Shown: positions 310 to 22,672 of the stretch, one piece after another
How the letters are laid out: each line of letters starts with the position of its first letter
Position numbering within the stretch: the stretch's first letter is position 1
From: Roseiarcus fermentans
GTDB lineage: Bacteria > Pseudomonadota > Alphaproteobacteria > Rhizobiales > Beijerinckiaceae
Length of the DNA: 64,000 nucleotides
Reading direction: 5' to 3'
Assembly: GCF_003315135.1 (NCBI RefSeq)
Contig: NZ_QNRK01000039.1
Span: forward strand, 1-64,000
Made by a program: the position numbers and the translations under genes
Notes under the pieces: model-generated
Told to the model about the DNA's origin: nothing
What the model saw: only the letters and a program-made list of their open reading frames with translations
Databases searched by the model: none

Positions 310-3300
310 ATGACGGACAGCCTGCGCCAGTTCGTCGCGGAGGCTCCGAATGCGACGGCGATGTTCGACCGTGAGATGCAGTATCTGGCGGCGAGCCCGA
401 GGTGGCTCGCCTGGTTCGGCCACCCGGCCTGCCCGATGGGCCGCAGCCATTACCACGACTTTCCCGGCAACCCCGAGGGTCTCGCGGCCGCGCACCAGCG
501 CGGCCTCGCCGGCGCGACCGAGAGCGCCGACGACCTTCGCCCTCCCGGCGCCGACGGCCGCTCGCGGCCGGTCAGATGGCTCGTCCGCCCGTGGCGGGAC
601 GGAGAGGGGGCGATCGCCGGAATCGTCGTCGCCGGCGAGGACGTCGCCGACCGCGTCGTTTCGCAGGCGATGGCCGAGGATCTGGCGCGAGACGTGCGGT
701 GGGCGGAGCGCTGCCTCGAGCAGGCGCTCGACGCGATTCCCGAAGGATTCGCGATCTATGACGCCGACGAGCGCCTGCTCGTTTTCAACAAGGCCATGCG
801 GACGCTCTACCGGTTCGGCGACGGCGACATCCTCGCGGGCATGCGGTTCGAGGACCTCGTCCGCGCCGTGGCTGACCGGGGAATCTGCGACGAGGCGGCG
901 CGCGACCGGGAAGCGTACGTCCGCGAGCGGCTGGAGCGGCATCGCAACCCGTGCGGCGCCGTCGAGCGCCGGCTCGCCGACGGGCGGTGGCTGCTCAGCG
1001 AGGAGCGCCGCACCCCCGACGGCGGGACCGTCGTGATCCGCACCGACATCACCGACCTCAAGACCCGCGAGCGGGAACTGGCGCGGAGGAACGCGCTCCT
1101 CGAAGCCACCTTCCGGAACATGGGCGAAGGGATCGGGGTGTTCGACCCGGACCGTCGCCTGATGGTCGCCCACGATGTCGTCGTTCGCCTGCTCGACGTG
1201 CCGCCCGAGCTGGTTCAGCCCGGCGTCCTGCTGGAGGACGTTACGCGATATCGCGCCGAGCGCGGCGATTTCGGCGATGTCGACGTCGAGTCGCTCGTGA
1301 ACGGCCGGATCGAGGCGTTTCGCCAGCAAAAGCCCTGGCGGGTGACGACGCGGGGCCCCAAAGGACGCGTGATCGACACGCGGTTCGAGCCGATGCCCGG
1401 CGGCGGCGGCGTCTTGGTGTTCAGCGACGTCACCGAACGCGCCGACGCCGAAGCCGAGCTCGCCCGGCGCAATGCGCTGCTCGAGGCCACCTTCCAGACC
1501 ATGGGCGAAGGGATCGCGGTCTTCGGTCCCGATCTCAGGCTCTCGGCCTTCAACCGGAACGCGGCGCTGCTGGTCGGCCTGCCGCCGGAGCTGGTCCGGC
1601 CGGGGGCGTCTTTCGCCGACATTGCGCAATCCTGCTGGGAACGCGGCGTTTTCCGCGACAGCGACGGCGACGCGGAGTCGTTCGTTCGCGAATCGACCGA
1701 GCAATTCCGGGCGCAAATCCGGTGGAGCCGAATCCTGTTCATGAACGGGCGCCTGACGGAAGTCCGGTTCCGCCCGATGCCGGACGGCGGCGGGGTCTAC
1801 GTCTACAGCGACATCAGCGAGCGCGCGGCGTCGGAGGCGCGGATTCGGGAGGAAGAGGCGAAATTCCGCAGCCTGGTCGAACAGGACGTCGCGGGCGCGG
1901 TGATCGTCCGGGCCGACGGAACGATCGGCTATTGCAATCGCTGCTTCGCCGCCATGCTCGGGTTCGCGTCGTCGGAGGTCGTCGGCCGGCCGCTGCTCGA
2001 TTTCGTGCCCGAGGCCGAACAGCCGGTCGTCGTGCGCCGCCTGAGTTCGCAACTGTTCGGCGCCGGCGCGACGGTCCAGATCGCCTCGACCGTTCGCGCG
2101 CGCGACGGAAGCATCGTCGATGTGCTGGTCAACGCCTCGAAATCGATGTTCCAGGGCGAGCCGGCGTCGATCGCCGTGGTTCTCGACGTCACTGCGCGCA
2201 ATCGGGCCGAGCGCGACCTGTTGTCCGCCGCCGCGCTCCTCGCCGCGGTGCACGAGGCCTCGCCCGAGGGAATCCTGGCGGTCGATTTCCGATCGCGCAT
2301 CCTGTTCGCCAACCGGCGCTACGCCGAGATTTTCGCCATCCCCGCCGATTTGCTCGCGCGTGGAGACGACCAAGCCGTTCGCGCCTACGCCGTCGCGCAA
2401 TTGAGCGACGCGGAGGCGTTCTGGCGCGGCGCGCAGCACTACGACGACCATCCCGACGCGTCCGGGCGCGACGAAGTCGAATTCAGGGACGGCCGCGTGG
2501 TCGAGCGGACGACGGCGCCGTTCTACGGGTCCAATGGCGAGCGCCTGGGGCGGATCTGGTTCTTCCACGACATCACCCGGCGCCGCTCGATCGAGGACTC
2601 GCTGCGCGCCAGCGAGGAACGCTTCCGCATGCTGGTCGAGGAAGCGCCCGACGGGATTCTCCTTTACGACGCCGGCCAGAATCGTTTCATCGCCACGAAC
2701 GCCGCCGCCGAGCGGCTGTTCGGCGTCCCCCGGGACGCGCTGCTCGAACGGGGGCCGCTGCCGTTCCTCACGCCGCAGCAGCCGGACGGACTGCCGATCG
2801 AAGCCTCCTTTGCGCGAAACAACCGGTGGGCCCTCTCCGGCAGGGAGGTCACGCACGAGCGGTGGATCCGCCAGCCTTCGGGCGAACAGCGAATCACCCA
2901 CGTGACCCTGGTTCGCCTGCCGGGCAGCGCCCTCATTCGGGCGAGCATGGTCGACATCACCGAGCAGCGGGCGGCGGAGGCGAAACTGGCGGAGGTCCAG
3001 CGCGACCTGGTGAGCCGCCAGGAAGCCGTCCGGCAGCGGATCGCGCGGGAATTGCACGACAGCCTCGGTCAGTACCTGGCGGCGATCGCCATCAAGCTGG
3101 AACTGCTCGGCCGGACGACGCCGAACGTCGCCGCGATCGAGTCCGGCCTCGCCGACCTGAAGGAGCTGACGGCGACGGTCGGAGAGGAAGTCAGCCGCCT
3201 GGCATGGGAATTGCGCCCGATCGCGCTCGACGACATCGGCCTCGAACCGGCCATCCGCAACCTGGTCGACACCTGGGCCGGCCGGTCCGGGCTCGCGTTC

Positions 3301-3645
3301 GACTGTCACCTCGCCCTGAACGCGTCCCGGTTGCCGCCCCTCGTCGAGACCACCCTCTACCGGGTGTTGCAGGAAGCCATCACCAACGTCGTCAAGCACG
3401 CGAGGGCGAAGACGGTCGGCGTGATCGTCAAGGCGTCGCCCCGCGATGTGCTGATGATCATCGAAGACGACGGCGTGGGCCTCGATCTGGCGCAGAACGA
3501 CCCGGCGTCGACGACCCGCCTGGGCCTCCTCGGCATTCGCGAGCGACTCGCCGCCATCAGGGGAAGCTTGCAGATCGAGTCGAAGCCGGGCGCCGGGACG
3601 ACCCTGATCGTGCGCGCACGGTTCGACGCCGCAGCCGCCGCCTGA
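310..3645 (+). CDS. Multi-PAS sensor histidine kinase (HisKA_3/NarL type)
   Basis: This is a 1111-residue sensor kinase that should autophosphorylate on histidine and pass the phosphate to a NarL/FixJ-type response regulator. Seven PAS-like modules can be followed, several with the repeated opening LEATF..MGEGI, which points to internal duplication. The H-box (IARELHDSLGQ, His about 916) is the HisKA_3 form. It is followed by a HATPase_c domain with N-box EAITNVVKHA, a DDGVGL motif and GLLGIRERL. No transmembrane segment is evident, so the protein is probably cytosolic and senses small ligands or redox state through its PAS domains. The ATG at 310 is preferred to an in-frame TTG at 283. No response regulator gene lies beside it, so it is an orphan here. 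Confidence 0.9.
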   Translation: MTDSLRQFVAEAPNATAMFDREMQYLAASPRWLAWFGHPACPMGRSHYHDFPGNPEGLAAAHQRGLAGATESADDLRPPGADGRSRPVRWLVRPWRDGEGAIAGIVVAGEDVADRVVSQAMAEDLARDVRWAERCLEQALDAIPEGFAIYDADERLLVFNKAMRTLYRFGDGDILAGMRFEDLVRAVADRGICDEAARDREAYVRERLERHRNPCGAVERRLADGRWLLSEERRTPDGGTVVIRTDITDLKTRERELARRNALLEATFRNMGEGIGVFDPDRRLMVAHDVVVRLLDVPPELVQPGVLLEDVTRYRAERGDFGDVDVESLVNGRIEAFRQQKPWRVTTRGPKGRVIDTRFEPMPGGGGVLVFSDVTERADAEAELARRNALLEATFQTMGEGIAVFGPDLRLSAFNRNAALLVGLPPELVRPGASFADIAQSCWERGVFRDSDGDAESFVRESTEQFRAQIRWSRILFMNGRLTEVRFRPMPDGGGVYVYSDISERAASEARIREEEAKFRSLVEQDVAGAVIVRADGTIGYCNRCFAAMLGFASSEVVGRPLLDFVPEAEQPVVVRRLSSQLFGAGATVQIASTVRARDGSIVDVLVNASKSMFQGEPASIAVVLDVTARNRAERDLLSAAALLAAVHEASPEGILAVDFRSRILFANRRYAEIFAIPADLLARGDDQAVRAYAVAQLSDAEAFWRGAQHYDDHPDASGRDEVEFRDGRVVERTTAPFYGSNGERLGRIWFFHDITRRRSIEDSLRASEERFRMLVEEAPDGILLYDAGQNRFIATNAAAERLFGVPRDALLERGPLPFLTPQQPDGLPIEASFARNNRWALSGREVTHERWIRQPSGEQRITHVTLVRLPGSALIRASMVDITEQRAAEAKLAEVQRDLVSRQEAVRQRIARELHDSLGQYLAAIAIKLELLGRTTPNVAAIESGLADLKELTATVGEEVSRLAWELRPIALDDIGLEPAIRNLVDTWAGRSGLAFDCHLALNASRLPPLVETTLYRVLQEAITNVVKHARAKTVGVIVKASPRDVLMIIEDDGVGLDLAQNDPASTTRLGLLGIRERLAAIRGSLQIESKPGAGTTLIVRARFDAAAAA

Positions 3646-3702: not shown

Positions 3703-4500
3703 TCATCCCCTTCGGGCTTCAATCCCCCGACAGATTGGATGGGCGGTCGGCGTCGCGCCGAAGGTGCGGCGAAATAGAGCGATGAACCCGCTGACGCTGC
3801 TGTAGCCCAGGTCGAGCGCAATGGACGTGACGGAATGACCCTCCGCCAGCATCTCCAGCGCGCGCAGCAGCCGAGCGCGCTGCCTCCAGTCCATAAAACT
3901 GAGGCCCGTTTCCTGCGGGAAGCGGCGGCTGAGCGTACGCGGCGTGCTGCACGCCCACGCAGCCCATTCCTCGATGGTGCGACCGTCCTCGGGATGTTCC
4001 AGAAGCGCCCGCGCGATCCGCTGAAGGCGCGGATCGCGCGGCATCGGCAAGCCGAGGGCCTCGGCTGGGAGCCGGCCGATTTCATCGACGATCAGGTCGG
4101 CGATGCGTTGGCGAGCCACATCCCATCGGTCGTCCTCCCAGGCGGCGGCGCGCAAGATTGCTTCGCGCAGCAGCGGGGGCGCGAACACCGTGCGAGGTCG
4201 TTCCGGCAGGTCCCGGCACGCCGCCGGGGCGACATAGACGCTCCAACCGGCGCCGGGACCGAAACTCTGGCCGCCATGGAGCTGGTGCGGCGGCAGCCAG
4301 ATCGCATGGCCCGATGGCACGACCCAGGCTTCGATATCCGTCAGGACGGTCACCACGCCACGGATGCAGCCGATCATCTGCCCGCGCGGATGACGATGGG
4401 CGGGCGTCGCGAACTCGGACTTGAGCGCGACGGAAAAGGCCGCGACGGTTGGCCCGTCCAGGTCATGGCCGATCAGGTCGGGCGGCTGACGATGAGGCAT
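3703..4500 (-). CDS. AraC family transcriptional regulator
   Basis: This 265-residue regulator has an N-terminal cupin-like sensing domain (HRHPRGQ near the start, then WLPPHQLHGG) and a C-terminal double helix-turn-helix (IALDLGYSSVSGFIALFRRTFG). This is the architecture of the AraC subfamily with a cupin sensor, which usually binds a small ligand and controls a neighbouring gene. It is divergent from the PPOX flavoprotein gene, 92 bases away, which makes that gene the most likely target. This target is an inference from position. The gene converges with the upstream multi-PAS kinase. Confidence 0.88.
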   Translation of the reverse strand: MPHRQPPDLIGHDLDGPTVAAFSVALKSEFATPAHRHPRGQMIGCIRGVVTVLTDIEAWVVPSGHAIWLPPHQLHGGQSFGPGAGWSVYVAPAACRDLPERPRTVFAPPLLREAILRAAAWEDDRWDVARQRIADLIVDEIGRLPAEALGLPMPRDPRLQRIARALLEHPEDGRTIEEWAAWACSTPRTLSRRFPQETGLSFMDWRQRARLLRALEMLAEGHSVTSIALDLGYSSVSGFIALFRRTFGATPTAHPICRGIEARRG

Positions 4501-4592
4501 GGCGTGTAACTGCTATTCAATGGCGGCAGTAGCTTAGCGCGGCCAAGGCGATCGCGCTAACCGCAGCGCCTGGTTCATCCGAGGCCCTTCCC

Positions 4593-5216
4593 ATGTCCAA
4601 CATCGCGTCCTCCGTAACCGGCGCAGATCTCGATCGACTCTATGCGCCCCCTTCCGAGGCGATCCAGCGCGCCGTGCTGCCGCATCTCGTCCCCTTTCAC
4701 GAGGCCTATATCGCCGCGGCGACCTTCCTGTGCCTCGCGAGCGGGAGCGCGCAAGGCCTTGACGCCTCGCCGCGCGGCGGCCCGGCAGGCTTCGTCAAAG
4801 TGGTCGACCCGCATCACGTCGCCTTCGCCGACTGGCCGGGAAATAACCGCATCGAGACGCTGCGCAATCTGCTTGCCGATGACCGGCTTGCGATGTTGTT
4901 TCTCTTCCCTGGGCTCGATGTTTTCCTCCGCATCAATGGCCGGGGCCGCGTCTTGACCGCCCCCGACCTGCTGGCCACGCTCAAGGAGGGCCAGAAGACG
5001 CCCAAGACAGCGATCCTGGTCGCGATCGAGCAGGTGCTGTTTCACTGCGGCAAGGCTATCAACCGGGCGCGGCTGTGGGACGAGACCTCGCGTATAGACC
5101 GGTCGCGCGTTCCATCCATCGGTCAGATGAAGACTGCACTGACGGGCGGGTCGCCGGCCGAGGCTGAGGTGGTGGACGCCCAGTACTGCGAGTCCGTCAG
5201 GAAAGATCTCTATTAG
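4593..5216 (+). CDS. Pyridoxamine 5'-phosphate oxidase-like FMN flavoprotein
   Basis: This 207-residue protein resembles the MSMEG_1061-type family of FMN-dependent PPOX-fold proteins. Typical features are HEAYIAAATFLCLASGS, the GGPAGFVKVVD strand, FADWPGNNRIETLRNLL (FMN phosphate-binding region) and a C-terminal segment around FHCGKAINRARLW. Members bind FMN or F420-like cofactors and reduce small molecules; the substrate is unknown. It is transcribed away from the AraC gene and ends 51 bases before the stop of the convergent Yip1-like gene. Confidence 0.82.
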   Translation: MSNIASSVTGADLDRLYAPPSEAIQRAVLPHLVPFHEAYIAAATFLCLASGSAQGLDASPRGGPAGFVKVVDPHHVAFADWPGNNRIETLRNLLADDRLAMLFLFPGLDVFLRINGRGRVLTAPDLLATLKEGQKTPKTAILVAIEQVLFHCGKAINRARLWDETSRIDRSRVPSIGQMKTALTGGSPAEAEVVDAQYCESVRKDLY

Positions 5217-5267
5217 CCGGTTGCTTCCCTGCCGATCGGCTCGCGGAGGCAATGCCGCCGGAAAAGG

Positions 5268-5831
5268 TCAGACGATCGGCCCGACGAACGCCGAGAGGAC
5301 GATCGACAGAATGACGGCCGAGACGACCGTGGCCAGCGCATACCCGAAGGTCCTGTCCGGCGGCGCCTTCATCAGGATCGGCAGCCCGAGCCAGAACACA
5401 TAGACGGCGTAGAGGAGGGCGAGGAGCCGCAGGAAGCCGAGGCCGGGAACGAGGACGAACACGCCCGCCACCCACGCCGGCGTCATCGAATAAACAACGA
5501 GTTTCAATGCGTTCTGCGGGTTCTTTTGCGTAGAGAAATTCGGCGCGAGGCCGTCGACGACGACCGCCATGATGTAGAGCGCGACGAAGGTCGCGAGGTA
5601 GTGGACGATTCCGCCGAACAGGCTCGCGAAGAAGCCGTGGTGGACGTGGTGGAGCCGCGGCCCCCAGCCGAACGCGCCGTGGCGCAGGAAGGCGCAGACC
5701 GGCGGGATCGCGGCGAGAAAGGCGGCGTAATTGGAAAACAGAAACCCCACGTCGCCCGGTTCCGGCTCGATTCGCCGCCACTCCGCGGCCGGCGATAGAA
5801 TCATGGCCCTGGCGCGCTCGAAGACATCCAT
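5268..5831 (-). CDS. Yip1 domain membrane protein
   Basis: This 187-residue inner-membrane protein starts with a short soluble stretch (MDVFERARAMILSPAAEWR) typical of bacterial Yip1-family proteins, in which a conserved tryptophan and glutamate precede the helices. About five hydrophobic segments follow, with an Asn-Ala-Leu-Lys motif between helices. The cellular role of bacterial Yip1 proteins is not established. It is convergent with the PPOX gene and divergent from msrQ, 177 bases away. Confidence 0.78.
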   Translation of the reverse strand: MDVFERARAMILSPAAEWRRIEPEPGDVGFLFSNYAAFLAAIPPVCAFLRHGAFGWGPRLHHVHHGFFASLFGGIVHYLATFVALYIMAVVVDGLAPNFSTQKNPQNALKLVVYSMTPAWVAGVFVLVPGLGFLRLLALLYAVYVFWLGLPILMKAPPDRTFGYALATVVSAVILSIVLSAFVGPIV

Positions 5832-17756: not shown

Positions 17757-18932
17757 ATGTTTCTCACCTTCTTCGCCAACCTGCGCCAGGCGCACGTCCC
17801 GGTCACGCCGCGCGAATATCTCGACGTCATGCGGGCGCTCGAGGGCGATCTCGCCGACCGGTCGGTCGACGAGTTCTATCGTCTCTCGCGCGCGCTCCTC
17901 GTCAAGGACGAGCGCAACCTCGACAAGTTCGACGTGGTGTTCGCCTCGACCTTCAAGGGGGTTCTCTCGCTCGCCGCGGCGGTCGAGGCGCAAGAGCTGC
18001 CGGAGGAATGGCTGCGGCGCATGGCCGAGCGCTTCCTCAGCCCCGAGGAGCGGGCCGAAATCGAAAAACTCGGCTTCGACAAGCTGATGGAGACGCTGCG
18101 CCAGCGCCTCGCCGAGCAGAAGGGGCGCCACCAGGGCGGCTCGAAGTGGATCGGCACCGGCGGCACGTCGCCGTTCGGCGCCTACGGCGACCACCCCGAG
18201 GGCGTGCGCATCGGCCAGGACAAGGGCCGGCGCGGCAGCGCGATCAAGGTGTGGGACAAGCGCGAGTTCCGCGACTTCGACGGCGACGCCGAACTGGGCC
18301 CACGCAACATCAAGCTCGCGCTCCGGCGCCTCAGGCGGTTCGCGCGCGAGGGCGCGGCCGAGGAGCTCGACCTCGACGGCACCATCCGCTCGACCGCCGA
18401 CCGCGGCTACATCGACGTCAAGCTCAGGCCCGAGCGGCGCAACGCCGTCAAGGTGCTGCTGTTCCTCGACGTCGGCGGCTCGATGGACTGGCACGTCGAG
18501 GCGGCCGAGCAGCTGTTCTCCGCAGCGCAGAGCCAGTTCAAGCGGCTCGAGCACTTCTATTTCCACAATTGCCTGTACGAGAGCGTATGGAAGAACAACC
18601 GCCGCCGTTACGAGGAGCGGATCGCCACCCGCGACCTCCTGAACGCCTACGGGCGCGACTATCGCGTCGTGTTCGTCGGCGACGCGTCGATGAGCCCGTA
18701 CGAGATCGTGTCGCCGGGCGGCTCGGTCGAGCACCTCAACCCCGAGCCCGGCCGGGTCTGGCTCGAACGCGCCTTCGCGACCTGGCCGCGCACGGTGTGG
18801 ATCAACCCGACCCCCGAGCCGCACTGGGCCTATTCGCAATCGACCCAGATCATCGCCGACATTCTGCAGCGGCGGATGTTTGCGCTGACGCCCGACGGGG
18901 TCGAGGCGGCGATGAAGGCGCTCGCGCACTGA
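17757..18932 (+). CDS. VWA domain protein (CoxE-like)
   Basis: This 391-residue protein resembles the CoxE-like VWA proteins that act with MoxR AAA+ ATPases in protein or metal-centre assembly. The N-terminal part (MFLTFFANLRQAHVPVTPRE) is typical. A linker with GGTSPFGAYG leads into the VWA domain, whose metal site is FLDVGGSMD, in which the first serine of the usual DxSxS is a glycine, a form I associate with this family. Such genes often sit next to a MoxR gene; here the likely partner lies about 10.8 kb downstream at 29737. Confidence 0.85.
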   Translation: MFLTFFANLRQAHVPVTPREYLDVMRALEGDLADRSVDEFYRLSRALLVKDERNLDKFDVVFASTFKGVLSLAAAVEAQELPEEWLRRMAERFLSPEERAEIEKLGFDKLMETLRQRLAEQKGRHQGGSKWIGTGGTSPFGAYGDHPEGVRIGQDKGRRGSAIKVWDKREFRDFDGDAELGPRNIKLALRRLRRFAREGAAEELDLDGTIRSTADRGYIDVKLRPERRNAVKVLLFLDVGGSMDWHVEAAEQLFSAAQSQFKRLEHFYFHNCLYESVWKNNRRRYEERIATRDLLNAYGRDYRVVFVGDASMSPYEIVSPGGSVEHLNPEPGRVWLERAFATWPRTVWINPTPEPHWAYSQSTQIIADILQRRMFALTPDGVEAAMKALAH

Positions 18933-19081
18933 CCGCGGCCCGGGCCGGTTTTGTGGGTTTTCAAAGGCTTGCGCGGGAATTTTCGGGCGACTGGCGACTG
19001 CAACGCCCGAGCCGGCGCCGGGCGCGTACGCTTCTTAGACGCGACCCCAAGGATTTCAACGCCTCGAACGCCAAAACCTGT

Positions 19082-19301
19082 CACGTGGTAACTCCCAAGC
19101 CGGCAGCGAACAGCGCCGTCATCGCGAGCGAAGCGAAGCGATCCAGGGCCGCTGGGCCGCTGTCGCGCCCTCTGGTCGTCCCGCCGCCCTTCGTTGCGAG
19201 CAGAAGACGGAGCGATTTTTTTCCGCCGTAAGCAACCGGCGGCATAGGTTGCTTCGTCGCTTTGCTCCTCGCAAAGACGGGGTTGGGAGTTACGTCACGT
19301 G
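19082..19301. repeat. MITE-like element with terminal inverted repeats
   Basis: The left end (19082-19098, CACGTGGTAACTCCCAA) is the reverse complement of the right end (19283-19301), apart from a 2-base difference. The interior holds GTCATCGCGAGCGAAGCG and a CTCCTCGCAAAGACGGGG motif. The same end sequence GTGACGTAACTCCCAA recurs at 63847. No coding capacity is seen, so it resembles a non-autonomous palindromic element. Confidence 0.65.
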
Positions 19302-19312
19302 GCAACACCCCC

Positions 19313-19390
19313 GTCATCGCGAGGAGCGACCCCCGGACTTGGATCCAGACTTGGATCCGGGGGGACGTGGCGATCCAGGCGGGCGGGGCC
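19313..19390. repeat. Copy of dispersed GTCATCGCGAGGAGCGA repeat
   Basis: A GTCATCGCGAGGAGCGACC start is followed by a CCCCGG/CCGGGGGG inverted pair enclosing a direct repeat of ACTTGGATCC, and then GGCGATCCAGG. This is the same layout as the copy at 63867. Confidence 0.6.
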
Positions 19391-19596
19391 AAGGTCTGCC
19401 GTATGCCCCGCGTCGCCGCGCTTCAACGTCGGCGCAGGCGGCCCCTGGATCGCCGCGTCGCCCTTCGGGCTCCTCGCGAGGACGGCGGGCAGCGTCATCG
19501 CCCCCGCCTCGGCGTCGACGACCGCCGTCATTCCAAGGTGCGCCTAGGCTTGGCAGTTACGTTCGCCTGTCGGCCTTGGCTGTCACGGTGGGCGCC

Positions 19597-19627
19597 GTCA
19601 TTGCGAGCCGAAGGCGGAGCAATCCAC
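19597..19627. repeat. Short copy of the dispersed repeat
   Basis: GTCATTGCGAGCCGAAGG is followed directly by CGGAGCAATCCAC, a compact version of the family with the internal part missing. Confidence 0.55.
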
Positions 19628-20090
19628 ACGGCTTTGACGCTGTTTTGGCCCGTGCATCGCTACGTCGCTTGGCTCCTCTCGATGACGGCGAGGAGGCGAC
19701 CTGGTCCGCCTGCGACGCTCGGGTTCATGCGCACGATGCGCAGAATCCCGTCGGCGCGCGGCGCGTCGCGCCCGCGGCCCCCGTGTCGCGAGCGTCCCGG
19801 AAGATGAACATCTCAAACAGCCGTCCGGCCTGTCCGTATTCCTGTCGAAGGACGCCGACCCCAACATCTGCACGTTAGCACAGTTTTCGGTTTTACGGAA
19901 GAAATTGCCGCGCCTCCTGCGTCCACCGGCGTCCAATCCCGCGGCCGTCCTCCCATCGGGCGGCTCGCCGGACGGCGGAGCCGGGACGGAGGAGGATGGC
20001 GATGAACCTGCTCGCGACGGTCAACAGATTTGACCAACATGGCGCCGCAGTTCACTGTCGCGGTCGGTTCGCGTCTTCCGAAAGCGCCCG

Positions 20091-20550
20091 ATGGATCAGC
20101 CGGCCCAGAACGCTCACGTCTCCGGCAATGACAACATCGTCGTCCAGGCGAGCGGGAGCGTCGTCACGATCACGACTGGCCTTGAACCCTATCTGCGCCT
20201 GACCCAGTACGAGAAGCGGACAAAGCTCGCGGCGCGGAACGATTCCGAGGCCGGGCTCCTCAGCGCCTACCGCGCCGACGTGGTCCCGCTGCTCGGTCGC
20301 GACGGCGCTCGGGCCGATCTGCGGGCGTGGCTCGACGCGGAGGCGCCGGTCTCCATCCGCGTGCTTGTCGGCGCGGGCGGGCGCGGCAAGACTCGGCTGG
20401 CGCTGGAGCTCGCGCGCGCTGTCGCGAAGGACGGCTGGCTCGCGGGTTTTGTCCCGGCGGACGAGCTCGACCGATTTCGCGCCCAGCACGGCGTCGAGCC
20501 GTGGCGCTGGGACAGGCCGGTCCTGGTCATCCTCGACTATTCCGCGAGCG
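20091..20550 (+). pseudogene. STAND-type P-loop NTPase fragment with N-terminal RHIM-like motif
   Basis: About 153 residues remain of an ATP-binding STAND-like protein. Residues 13-23 (NDNIVVQASGS) resemble the RHIM-like amyloid signalling motifs (VQxxG type) found at the N-termini of such NTPases. A LLSAYRADVVPLLGR block leads to a Walker A at 94-101 (GAGGRGKT) and a Walker B-like VLVILDY at 144-150. Sequence resembling the family stops at LDYSAS, where intact members continue for hundreds of residues. The reading frame then runs on into a second gene remnant. A signalling role in defence or regulated cell death is inferred for the parent protein; this copy lacks sensor and effector parts. 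Confidence 0.6.
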
Positions 20551-20567
20551 AGAAAGGACCAACGCCC

Positions 20568-20957
20568 ATGGACCCCGCCGCGCTCGCCGCCGCCGCTGTC
20601 GCCACGCCCCCACCTGCTCGACTTCGGCAAGGACGTCGCGGCGCACGCCGCCGCCGAGGGCATTTGGGTCTGGATCAAGGGCCGGCTGAAAAGCCCCGCC
20701 GGCGCGGAGGCGGTCGGCGACGCCGAGCGCGACCCGAAGGACGCCGCCAACGCCATGGCGCTGCAGGCGCAATTGATCCCATGGCGCTGCAGGCGCAATT
20801 GATCAAGGCGCTGAAGGCCGACCCCGAGGCGGCCAACGCGCTCGAAGCCCTGCTGAGGGCAGGCGGCGCGGCGCTGACGGCGCAGACGGCGACCGTGACC
20901 GGCGACGCCAACAAGGTCGGGCAGGCGAGCGGGGGGAGTTCTGTCGCGATCGGGTGA
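20568..20957 (+). pseudogene. Frameshifted small adaptor-like protein with C-terminal RHIM-like motif
   Basis: The gene begins MDPAALAAAAVA after a GAAAGGACC ribosome-site-like run. Near 20605-20615 the homologous frame shifts by one base to give LLDFGKDVAAHAAAEGIWV and then GRLKSPAGAEAVGDAERD. A 26-bp tandem duplication at 20753-20804 returns it to the first frame, giving IKALKADPEAANALEALL and ending GDANKVGQASGGSSVAIG. The tail shares N-x-V-x-Q-A-S-G with the N-terminus of the upstream NTPase fragment. The restored protein would have about 120 residues, helical with an amyloid-like tail, as in small partners encoded beside STAND NTPases. As it stands, the middle third is read out of frame. 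Confidence 0.58.
20753..20804 (+). repeat. Perfect 26-bp tandem duplication
   Basis: Two identical 26-base units (20753-20778 and 20779-20804) encode the MALQAQLI region. Because 26 is not a multiple of three, the duplication changes frame and offsets the earlier one-base shift. Confidence 0.95.
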
Positions 20958-20965
20958 CATATGTT

Positions 20966-21417
20966 CCTTCCCCAGCTTTGCTCTACGGCATGCCCAAATC
21001 TCTCGGGTCGCGCACCCCTTCCCCAGCTTTGCTCTACGGCATGCACACACCTCGTATATCGGCGGAACTTCAAGCGACGGGAGCGTCCCCGCCCCCCTTG
21101 TGGGGGCGGGACAGGGTGGGGGGTCTCTCGGACCTTTCCGTTCGGCGGCTGGAAAAGCGCTCACCGTCGAGGTTCGGCGTGACCCCCCTCCTCGTTCCTC
21201 CCCCACAAGGGGGGAGGAGGCGCACGCGTCGACGGTTGCCCCGGCTGGGCGAGTTGTGCGCAGGCGGTAGAGCTTTGCTGGGGAAGGTGGCTCGAAGGGC
21301 CGGATGGGGTGTAGGCTGCTGCATCGCCATCGACGGATTGCACGACCGTCTCAGCCTCGCCGCGCCGTCAGACTCCTGCTTTCCACACCCCATCCGGCGC
21401 TGCGCGCCACCTTCCCC
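20966..21417. repeat. Cluster of direct and inverted repeats
   Basis: A 28-base direct repeat (CCTTCCCCAGCTTTGCTC...) lies at 20966-20993 and 21017-21044, with an inverted relative at 21267-21287. Two strong hairpins occur at 21088-21110 (CCCGCCCCC/GGGGGCGGG) and 21197-21217 (CCTCCCCC/GGGGGGAGG). A 33-base inverted pair spans 21280-21312 and 21385-21417, ending in ACACCCCATCCGG. No protein is encoded. These look like nested palindromic intergenic elements. Confidence 0.8.
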
Positions 21418-21465
21418 AACATTCGTTGGGGAAGGGGTGAACGCCCGGCCCGGCGGGCCCCGAAC

Positions 21466-21888
21466 TCACCGCACCACCAGCACCGAGCACTGCGCGTGGC
21501 GGACGATGGTCTTGGCGTTCGAACCGAGCAGGTAGTCGCTCATCACCGGACGGTGCGAGCCGACGACGATCAGGTCGGCGCCCCATTCGGTCGCCTCCTC
21601 GAGGAGCTCGTGGTAGATGCCGCCGGCGCGCGCGGCGACGCTCTTGCGGTCGGCCGGCAGGTCGACCCCGGCGACGAGTTCGTTGAGCTGCTCCAGCGCC
21701 CGCTTGGTCTGTTCCGCGTCGAAGTCGGCCGGCACGTATTCCATGAAGGTCGCCGGCACCACCGGCTGGACGTTGACCAGCCGCAGGGACCCGCCCCACG
21801 CCTTGGCGAGCTCCAGCGCCTCGGAGAGGCCCTTGGGCGCAGCCGACGTTTCCCCGAGGTCGACCGCGAGAACGATGCGCTTGTACAT
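21466..21888 (-). CDS. Universal stress protein (UspA family)
   Basis: This 140-residue cytosolic protein has the Usp fold: MYKRIVLAVDLGE at the first strand, and the ATP-binding type GSHRPVMSDYLLGSNAKTIVRHAQCSVLVVR near the end (G-2x-G-9x-G-S/T-like spacing with SDYLLGS). The ATG at 21888 is preceded by GGAGGGTGGTC, a strong ribosome site. Usp proteins support survival under stress by unclear mechanisms. It is divergent from dksA, 210 bases apart. Confidence 0.88.
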   Translation of the reverse strand: MYKRIVLAVDLGETSAAPKGLSEALELAKAWGGSLRLVNVQPVVPATFMEYVPADFDAEQTKRALEQLNELVAGVDLPADRKSVAARAGGIYHELLEEATEWGADLIVVGSHRPVMSDYLLGSNAKTIVRHAQCSVLVVR

Positions 21889-22098
21889 GACCACCCTCCG
21901 TTTCCGATCCCGCGTCCGGGGCCGACTCCTCGGCGCAACGTAATCCCGCGCGGGCGTCTGGCAAGCGGCCTGCGGCAATATGCTCCGCCGGAGGCGCCCT
22001 GTTTACGGGCGTGCGGCGGCCGTCAGACGATAGTCGTTGTTCCTTCGCCCCGGGGTCGCTATAAGGCCGCGAAAATCCACTGGAGACAGGGATCACGG

Positions 22099-22515
22099 AT
22101 GAACGATTTCGGCTCTGAGAGCTACAAGCCGTCGGACGCGGAACCGTTCATGAACGAGCGACAGCGCGAATATTTCCGGCGCAAGCTGATCGCGTGGCGG
22201 GAGTCGATCCTCGCCGAAAGCCGCGACACGCTGAACGCGCTCCAGCACGAGAGCGAGAACCACCCCGACATCGCCGACCGGGCGTCGTCGGAGACCGACC
22301 GCGCGATCGAGCTTCGCGCCCGCGACCGCCAGCGCAAGCTGATCTCCAAGATCGAGAGCGCGCTGTCGCGGATCGAGGAGGGCTCGTACGGCTATTGCGT
22401 CGAGACCGGCGATCCGATCTCGTTGCGCCGTCTCGACGCCCGCCCGATCGCCACCCTGTCGGTCGAGGCGCAGGAGCGCCACGAGCGGCGCGAGAAGATC
22501 TACCGGGACGACTGA
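22099..22515 (+). CDS. dksA: RNA polymerase-binding transcription factor DksA
   Basis: DksA enters the RNA polymerase secondary channel and, with ppGpp, retunes transcription in the stringent response. The 138-residue protein has the coiled-coil region (SILAESRDTLNALQ) with the tip residues in the SENHPDIADRASSETDR loop and the C-terminal zinc-finger-like domain. That finger keeps only one cysteine (YGYCVETGDPISLRRLDARP), the reduced form seen in alphaproteobacteria, rather than four. The ATG at 22099 fits the family length. Confidence 0.93.
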   Translation: MNDFGSESYKPSDAEPFMNERQREYFRRKLIAWRESILAESRDTLNALQHESENHPDIADRASSETDRAIELRARDRQRKLISKIESALSRIEEGSYGYCVETGDPISLRRLDARPIATLSVEAQERHERREKIYRDD

Positions 22516-22672
22516 CCCCCGCGGCGCCCTCGCTGGGCGCCGGTCGGCGGGCAGAAACGCCGCCGTTTGCGAGCCGAATGCGACGCCGTCCATGGCGCCG
22601 GGCCGTCGCGGCGGGCTTTGCGCCATCGGCCCGGGCCCGGGCCGCTCCCGCCCACGACGGCGGGCGCTCGCC

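Follow-up and report, generated by a model that had tools for sequence, protein, structure and literature searches.

A decayed NTPase and partner gene pair with matching ends in Roseiarcus fermentans, and its relatives in Alphaproteobacteria

Introduction

Can a reading frame that runs open through parts of two genes be a new protein, or is it what remains of an older pair? This question is raised by a locus of Roseiarcus fermentans (contig NZ_QNRK01000039.1, positions 1 to 64,000, hereafter the window), in which a forward-strand frame at 20091-20957 stays open from ATG to TGA over 288 codons, as the initial annotation had indicated. That annotation proposed two readings of the chimera: a dying pair of an NTPase and an adaptor that meet through matching ends, or a minimal fusion retained with amyloid-like ends. 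The first is well supported by the separate genes found in relatives and by a re-pairing test of the ends (6/720). The locus is a pseudogenised two-gene unit, consisting of a STAND-like P-loop TPR NTPase and a predicted-helical small protein whose outer ends share a motif. We consider it very probable overall that a broken pair lies here within an insertion, and that the working pair would act in an NLR/BELL-like mode. NLR/BELL pairs with BASS motifs were reportedly described by Dyrka et al. in 2020, in J Mol Biol 432:6005. The features discussed below are collected in Table 1.

Table 1. Features of the locus, in coordinates of the window.
Feature	Position	Strand	Basis or remark
VWA-type gene (name by eye)	17757-18932	+	left flank
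Insertion between VWA-type gene and universal stress protein gene	18933-21465		synteny
NTPase N-terminal remnant: end motif, P-loop GAGGRGKT, Walker B-like VLVILDY	20091-20549	+	identity to S129
NTPase-side end motif AQNAHVSGNDNIVVQASGSVVTI	20103-20171	+	matches partner end, 5/20,000 shuffles as good
Deletion junction	20543-20552	+	blastn pieces 295-761 and 3375 onward of the S129 locus (L026) join; sequences compared
Small helical partner remnant, with its own ATG and upstream AAAGGA	20568-20957	+	family-profile matches
C-run with one-base length difference, shifts frame	20604-20611	+	alignment with S129 DNA
Partner helical core, out of frame	20611-20778	+	codon-position GC
Tandem duplication, 26 bp x2, perfect	20753-20804	+	one copy in S129
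Partner-side end motif AQTATVTGDANKVGQASGGSSVAI	20880-20951	+	matches NTPase end
Universal stress protein gene (name by eye), convergent	21466-21888	-	right flank

Results

An open two-gene form in a related bacterium

A pattern-based scan of one genome per species, covering 84,980 species, returned two matches. The close one was Methylocapsa sp. S129 (72% over residues 1-156); the other, from an Octadecabacter MAG (32%), was dropped because the start of its frame is peptidase-like by eye. The S129 genome was assigned to the genus of the window because its partner protein was found at 100% in genome G300. In S129 each of the two genes has an open frame of its own: the P-loop NTPase (1024 aa, ten TPR_10 stretches) is followed after 22 bp by the gene of a 125-aa helical partner. 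This pair sits elsewhere in the genome, near a contig end and adjoining a transporter-like gene. A single-sequence model of the S129 partner (pLDDT 60) predicts six helices and a disordered tail, and had no match in the PDB at E<=0.001; the fold model of the S129 NTPase was unusable (pLDDT 39).

We searched both parts of the chimera separately, a check suggested by the initial annotation, and each has homologs. The NTPase remnant shares 73% amino acid identity with residues 1-153 of the S129 NTPase over 152 aligned codons. Its synonymous divergence from S129 (dS 0.86) is close to the values of the genes on either side (0.72 and 0.93), which places the window and S129 copies about as far apart as the species. 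For pN/pS we obtained 0.30 in the NTPase piece, 0.59 and 0.50 in the two partner pieces, and 0.31 and 0.37 in the same neighbouring genes. Searched separately against a family profile built from the partner proteins of four relatives, the two partner pieces scored 37.0 and 39.0 bits, and shuffled controls reached at most 5.1; Pfam gave no match above cut-off for the partner.

In the profile search the NTPase stayed below every curated STAND cut-off; its Walker A motif GAGGRGKT is present. The part in the window scored 21.7 bits with AAA_16 (cut-off 32.6; E 3e-4) and 13 bits with nSTAND3 (cut-off 27.2), the S129 NTPase 21.0 bits with AAA_16 (cut-off 32.6), and a Rhizobium relative 23.8 bits with nSTAND_NTPase5 (cut-off 34). 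PADLOC models matched neither S129 protein at E up to 1, and gave only three weak matches to the window NTPase piece (best E 0.018).

No second copy of the NTPase was found in the assembly of R. fermentans, where the search gave one distant match, and the partner search returned the window locus only. The same genome holds a distant P-loop NTPase of like kind, in a 668-aa frame (G000:C2:219097-219300, reverse strand). Of 18 distant NTPase loci (L008-L025), 17 were inspected over up to 160 residues ahead of the match, and by eye none carries a similar end motif. Plasmid matches to the S129 partner or to the end piece of the window were not found.

Three lesions and a frame that stays open

Blastn aligned window positions 20086-20549 with S129 295-761, and 20543-20639 with S129 from 3375; as these pieces join at the junction in the window, about 2.6 kb is missing (L026, approximately 762-3374). 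The lost segment comprises the remainder of the NTPase domain after Walker B, the TPRs and the NTPase stop codon, whereby the two genes were joined. The NTPase therefore does not stop just after Walker B, as had been thought: it is cut by the deletion and its own stop is absent. The start codon of the partner and the intergenic spacer survive.

Both frame changes proposed from the sequence proved correct. The C-run near 20610 differs in length from S129 DNA by one base, and the perfect 26-bp duplication (copies 20753-20778 and 20779-20804) is a single unit in S129; it returns the final 59 partner codons to frame. Between the two, about 56 codons are read off-frame, and residues 173-230 of the chimera are 76% R/G/A/P. 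The off-frame stretch still carries the codon-position GC signature of the old frame (0.75/0.46/0.95 in the original frame, 0.95/0.75/0.46 as currently read). The opposite strand is open as well, with a 384-aa frame at 20052-21206.

An insertion absent from relatives

The remnant occupies an insertion of about 2.5 kb that is absent from 7/7 relatives scorable by synteny. The VWA-type gene was found in nine of ten other genus members and the universal stress protein gene in all ten; in the seven with both genes on one contig these lie 11-167 nt apart (tblastn hit ends), and in the window 2.5 kb apart.

Dispersed repeats, their units roughly 205 and 250 bp long, lie to the left of the remnant (19088-19293 and 19308-19561). 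The segment 18933-20085 has 79 matches in its own genome (query included), mostly at 87-97% identity, and these repeats are likely a REP/MITE-type family. Between the remnant and the stress protein gene are two imperfect inverted repeats, at 21075-21231 (58-nt arms, 78%) and 21276-21421 (37-nt arms, 89%). No Rfam family reached the gathering score in 18500-22600, and no tRNA was found in the window.

Matching ends

The N-x-V-x-Q-A-S-G pattern noted earlier at both ends is real and belongs to a longer stretch than had been described, with 11/18 identical residues between AQNAHVSGNDNIVVQASG and AQTATVTGDANKVGQASG. Aligned locally, the two ends reach a best score of 44, a value equalled in the shuffles of the partner end only at the rate given in Table 1; the match of the partner-side end of the window to the NTPase end of S129 was equalled in 0/20,000 shuffles. 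At the DNA level, identity between the 56-nt stretches at 20101-20156 and 20878-20933 is 73%, and the 39 identities of the ungapped 54-nt match were reached in 0/2,000 codon shuffles, the best of which had 38. We also observed that the motif-coding stretches 20103-20156 and 20880-20933 are 72% identical over 54 nt in the window, and 56% in S129; gene conversion between these end stretches is a possibility.

In the pairs of four alphaproteobacterial relatives and of the window, shuffles as good numbered, out of 10,000, one for G797, none for G771, ten for G493, none for G744 and two for the window. The ends of the S129 pair match poorly (1,775/20,000 shuffles as good, 883/10,000 in a second run; not significant), as do those of the Rhizobium pair (734/10,000; not significant). 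When the ends of six pairs (window, S129, G797, G771, G493 and G744) were re-paired, the summed score of the true partners was reached by 6/720 re-pairings, the true pairing included, and the own partner was the best of its row in just 3/6 pairs. The paired ends are distinct: QASG marks those of the window, QIVGS those of G744 and NIxVQA..STVxIT those of G797.

The label "RHIM-like" given to these motifs did not hold. The RHIM core is G-(I,V)-Q-(I,V)-G according to PMC7885112, and it is absent at 4/4 ends tested, those of the window and of S129; we rejected membership on these core residues. Like the RHIM, BASS3 and fungal PP motifs, the motif of the window is short and glutamine-centred with flanking N, V and G, but it has Q-A-S-G instead and lacks the RHIM core. 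The published BASS3 peptide ORT49035 has this core, and the BASS3-like AEB69175 does not.

The common ends may instead be a docking tag, or a shared Gly/Asn-rich tail, without being amyloid signalling motifs. The absence of the RHIM core leans that way, and docking and templating are not separable by motif matching alone. The archaeal peptide AEB69175, likewise without the core, is reported to aggregate in PMC8086366, so the missing core is no argument against amyloid. Moreover, the match is ordered rather than compositional, as the shuffles indicate, and the layout is the same as that of cyanobacterial pairs and of the BASS pairs described in PMC7889193. We regard a docking tag or shared tail as unlikely, yet as an account that keeps some weight, and prefer ends that would meet as signalling motifs.

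A family of pairs in Alphaproteobacteria

NTPase matches at E<=1e-10 were present in ten of 385 genomes of Alphaproteobacteria, and in five of the ten, R. fermentans included, the match extends into the N-terminal motif region. The regions were fetched for six of the nine others. Intact neighbours, which the initial annotation had suggested looking for, do exist: as in S129, the NTPase and partner genes of G493 and G797 are both open and adjacent. In G771 (L087, G771:C101:97500-104000) the partner is open and directly downstream of the NTPase, the last ~100 residues of which are in another frame (L087 ~4200-4597). In G744 the contig ends after the NTPase and the partner, found by a profile built without G744, stands at the start of another contig, so that we infer adjacency. 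The NTPase of G670 is cut at 308 aa (L086, G670:C191:12000-19000, reverse strand 4497-5423) with no partner found, and is a second decayed copy in the class. The N-terminus of the relative in G658 differs. Judging by the copies in the window, G670 and G771, pairs of this type seem also to be readily lost.

Across the 385 genomes, the four-partner profile found members in five (G493, G771, G797, R. fermentans and G744), all among the ten NTPase genomes; this search found no partner in the other five. The partner of S129 is homologous to those of G797 (E 6e-13) and G771 (E 1e-15). Candidates in G304 (E 0.005) and G462 (E 7.8e-4) were dropped, having no NTPase match in the fetched stretch and not rising above the noise of the family profile. 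A single pattern scan over viral contigs (43 stretches) yielded no confirmed partner. Among the literature matches listed, no description of such pairs in Alphaproteobacteria was found.

Comparison with known systems

According to PMC7889193, PMC8086366 and PMC9815663, NLR/BELL systems with BASS motifs consist of neighbouring genes, the NTPase receptor bearing the motif N-terminally and a small helical protein bearing it C-terminally; PMC7889193 reports them mainly from Actinobacteria and Cyanobacteria. The pairs of our relatives resemble them in gene adjacency (S129, G797 and G493, where both genes are open, and G771, whose NTPase changes frame near its C-terminus) and in the placement of the motif at the NTPase N-terminus and partner C-terminus, the S129 ends being not significant. 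They differ in host group, here Alphaproteobacteria, and in motif, here without the RHIM core, and the window copy is broken.

The alphaproteobacterial partner profile also scored against Bell-like plasmid proteins of Acaryochloris (21.2 bits), Nostoc (18.2), Tolypothrix (16.8) and Arthrobacter (14.0), with a best shuffle of 5.1, of which the scores for Gordonia (7.8) and Sphaerospermopsis (5.8) were not clear. The name Bell for these plasmid proteins is putative. The S129 partner alone matched a Bell-like profile at 22% probability (hhalign). Downstream of a related NTPase (34% over 906 columns) on a conjugative Rhizobium plasmid, a small protein is encoded. It matched, at 90% probability, a profile built from seven small Bell-like proteins: four of cyanobacterial and two of actinobacterial origin, and one encoded on that same plasmid. 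Plasmid pRlX3 of Rhizobium ruizarguesonis (L028, 1-8753) bears two such NTPase and small-protein pairs side by side. A Bell-like gene of G099 (L070, 5194-5676) lies near phage terminase- and portal-like ORFs (names by eye).

A large P-loop neighbour stands at four of the seven plasmid Bell-like loci: with WD40 in Acaryochloris, with TPR in Arthrobacter, and unannotated in Nostoc and Sphaerospermopsis. The pair test covered four of the seven loci, the Gordonia, Tolypothrix and Rhodococcus ones being left out. Ends matched with scores of 78 in Acaryochloris (0/5,000 shuffles as good), 62 in Sphaerospermopsis (0/5,000) and 40 in Nostoc (19/5,000); the match was missing in Rhizobium pair B, Arthrobacter and the second Acaryochloris pair, and weak in Rhizobium pair A (388/5,000).

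Two other systems resemble the NTPase. LypABC of Caulobacter crescentus is described in PMC13236601 as a CARD-NLR-like multi-gene lysis system. Like the S129-type NTPase, its NLR-like protein is alphaproteobacterial and combines a Walker-type ATPase domain with TPR-like repeats, but its partners are trypsin-like peptidases and its contacts CARD-like, in a comparison made by description only; the word "amyloid" is absent from the main text of that paper. The TPR-annotated NTPases of Streptomyces plasmids are related in their NTPase domain, at 33-40% over 103-131 query residues for the three records with this layout. There the small neighbour, annotated trypco2, precedes the NTPase, unlike the downstream partner here.

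Discussion

How the working pair may act

Modelled on NLR/BELL and fungal HET-S-type systems, the working pair would sense some signal through its TPR region, upon which the NTPase would oligomerise and cluster its N-terminal ends. The clustered ends could then template the same fold in the C-terminal tail of the partner, whose helical bundle would be the effector, probably at the membrane as proposed for NLR/BELL. The predicted six helices and tail of the S129 partner fit this scheme without proving it. A role of the pair in defence may be inferred from these parallels, and phage as the target would be a guess. It is plausible, though somewhat short of probable, that Alphaproteobacteria carry NLR/BELL-type pairs with an amyloid signalling class of their own (of the type G-x-x-N-x-x-x-Q-[AIV]-x-G), the ends co-evolving pair by pair, and that the window pair is dying by deletion and fusion.

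Is the broken frame real, and is it kept?

The lesions could be wholly or partly sequencing or assembly errors, with a better copy in the strain. One of them lies in a homopolymer run, another is an exact tandem repeat, and the assembly consists of 90 contigs; error at the C-run and the duplication is possible. Against this, the ends of the deletion lie outside the part of S129 that codes for the TPRs, no second copy of either gene was found in the assembly, and three independent errors within 870 bp would be unlikely. We therefore take error, as an explanation of the locus, to be very improbable, and read the lesions as genuine decay.

The fused frame is most likely debris and not a new protein, because a related bacterium has two separate open genes. 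Neither is an open frame costly to obtain: when 3,382 stretches of 56 codons, taken from the S129 NTPase and five genes of the window, were read with this shift, 76% were free of stops. Simulated neutral decay of the S129 locus, with a single deletion, a single-base insertion and a single duplication in ranges chosen by the analyst, left the frame open to its end in 19.8% of 20,000 runs, so selection need not be invoked; by this simulation, that all changes in the window end in frame is mildly unusual (about 20%). Among ten other genus members a sound partner match was found in S129 alone, as a separate gene, a further weak match having been discarded, and the genus search, in which some assemblies are only 79-91% complete, found no fused form.

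A selected minimal fusion, in which the 288-aa product with NTPase end, P-loop and partner end would serve as a decoy or self-assembling regulator, has in its favour the frame open from start to stop, the preserved ends and P-loop, the pN/pS of 0.30 of the NTPase fragment and the closer DNA likeness of its end stretches than in S129, but the partner's helical core in its middle is scrambled and retains the old codon signature, that pN/pS against S129 probably for the most part predates decay, and we reject such selection as unnecessary and hold the idea to be the most improbable of all.

What the family offers

The window copy has lost its sensor, most of its NTPase and the core of its effector, and so most likely does nothing. 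The locus is an ordinary pseudogene, and its worth lies in the family to which it belongs. The broken copy by itself teaches little; the family provides natural pairs with distinct matching ends. With these, one may ask whether signalling between NLR proteins and their partners through templated ends extends past the groups from which it is mainly known, and how the specificity of each pair arises.
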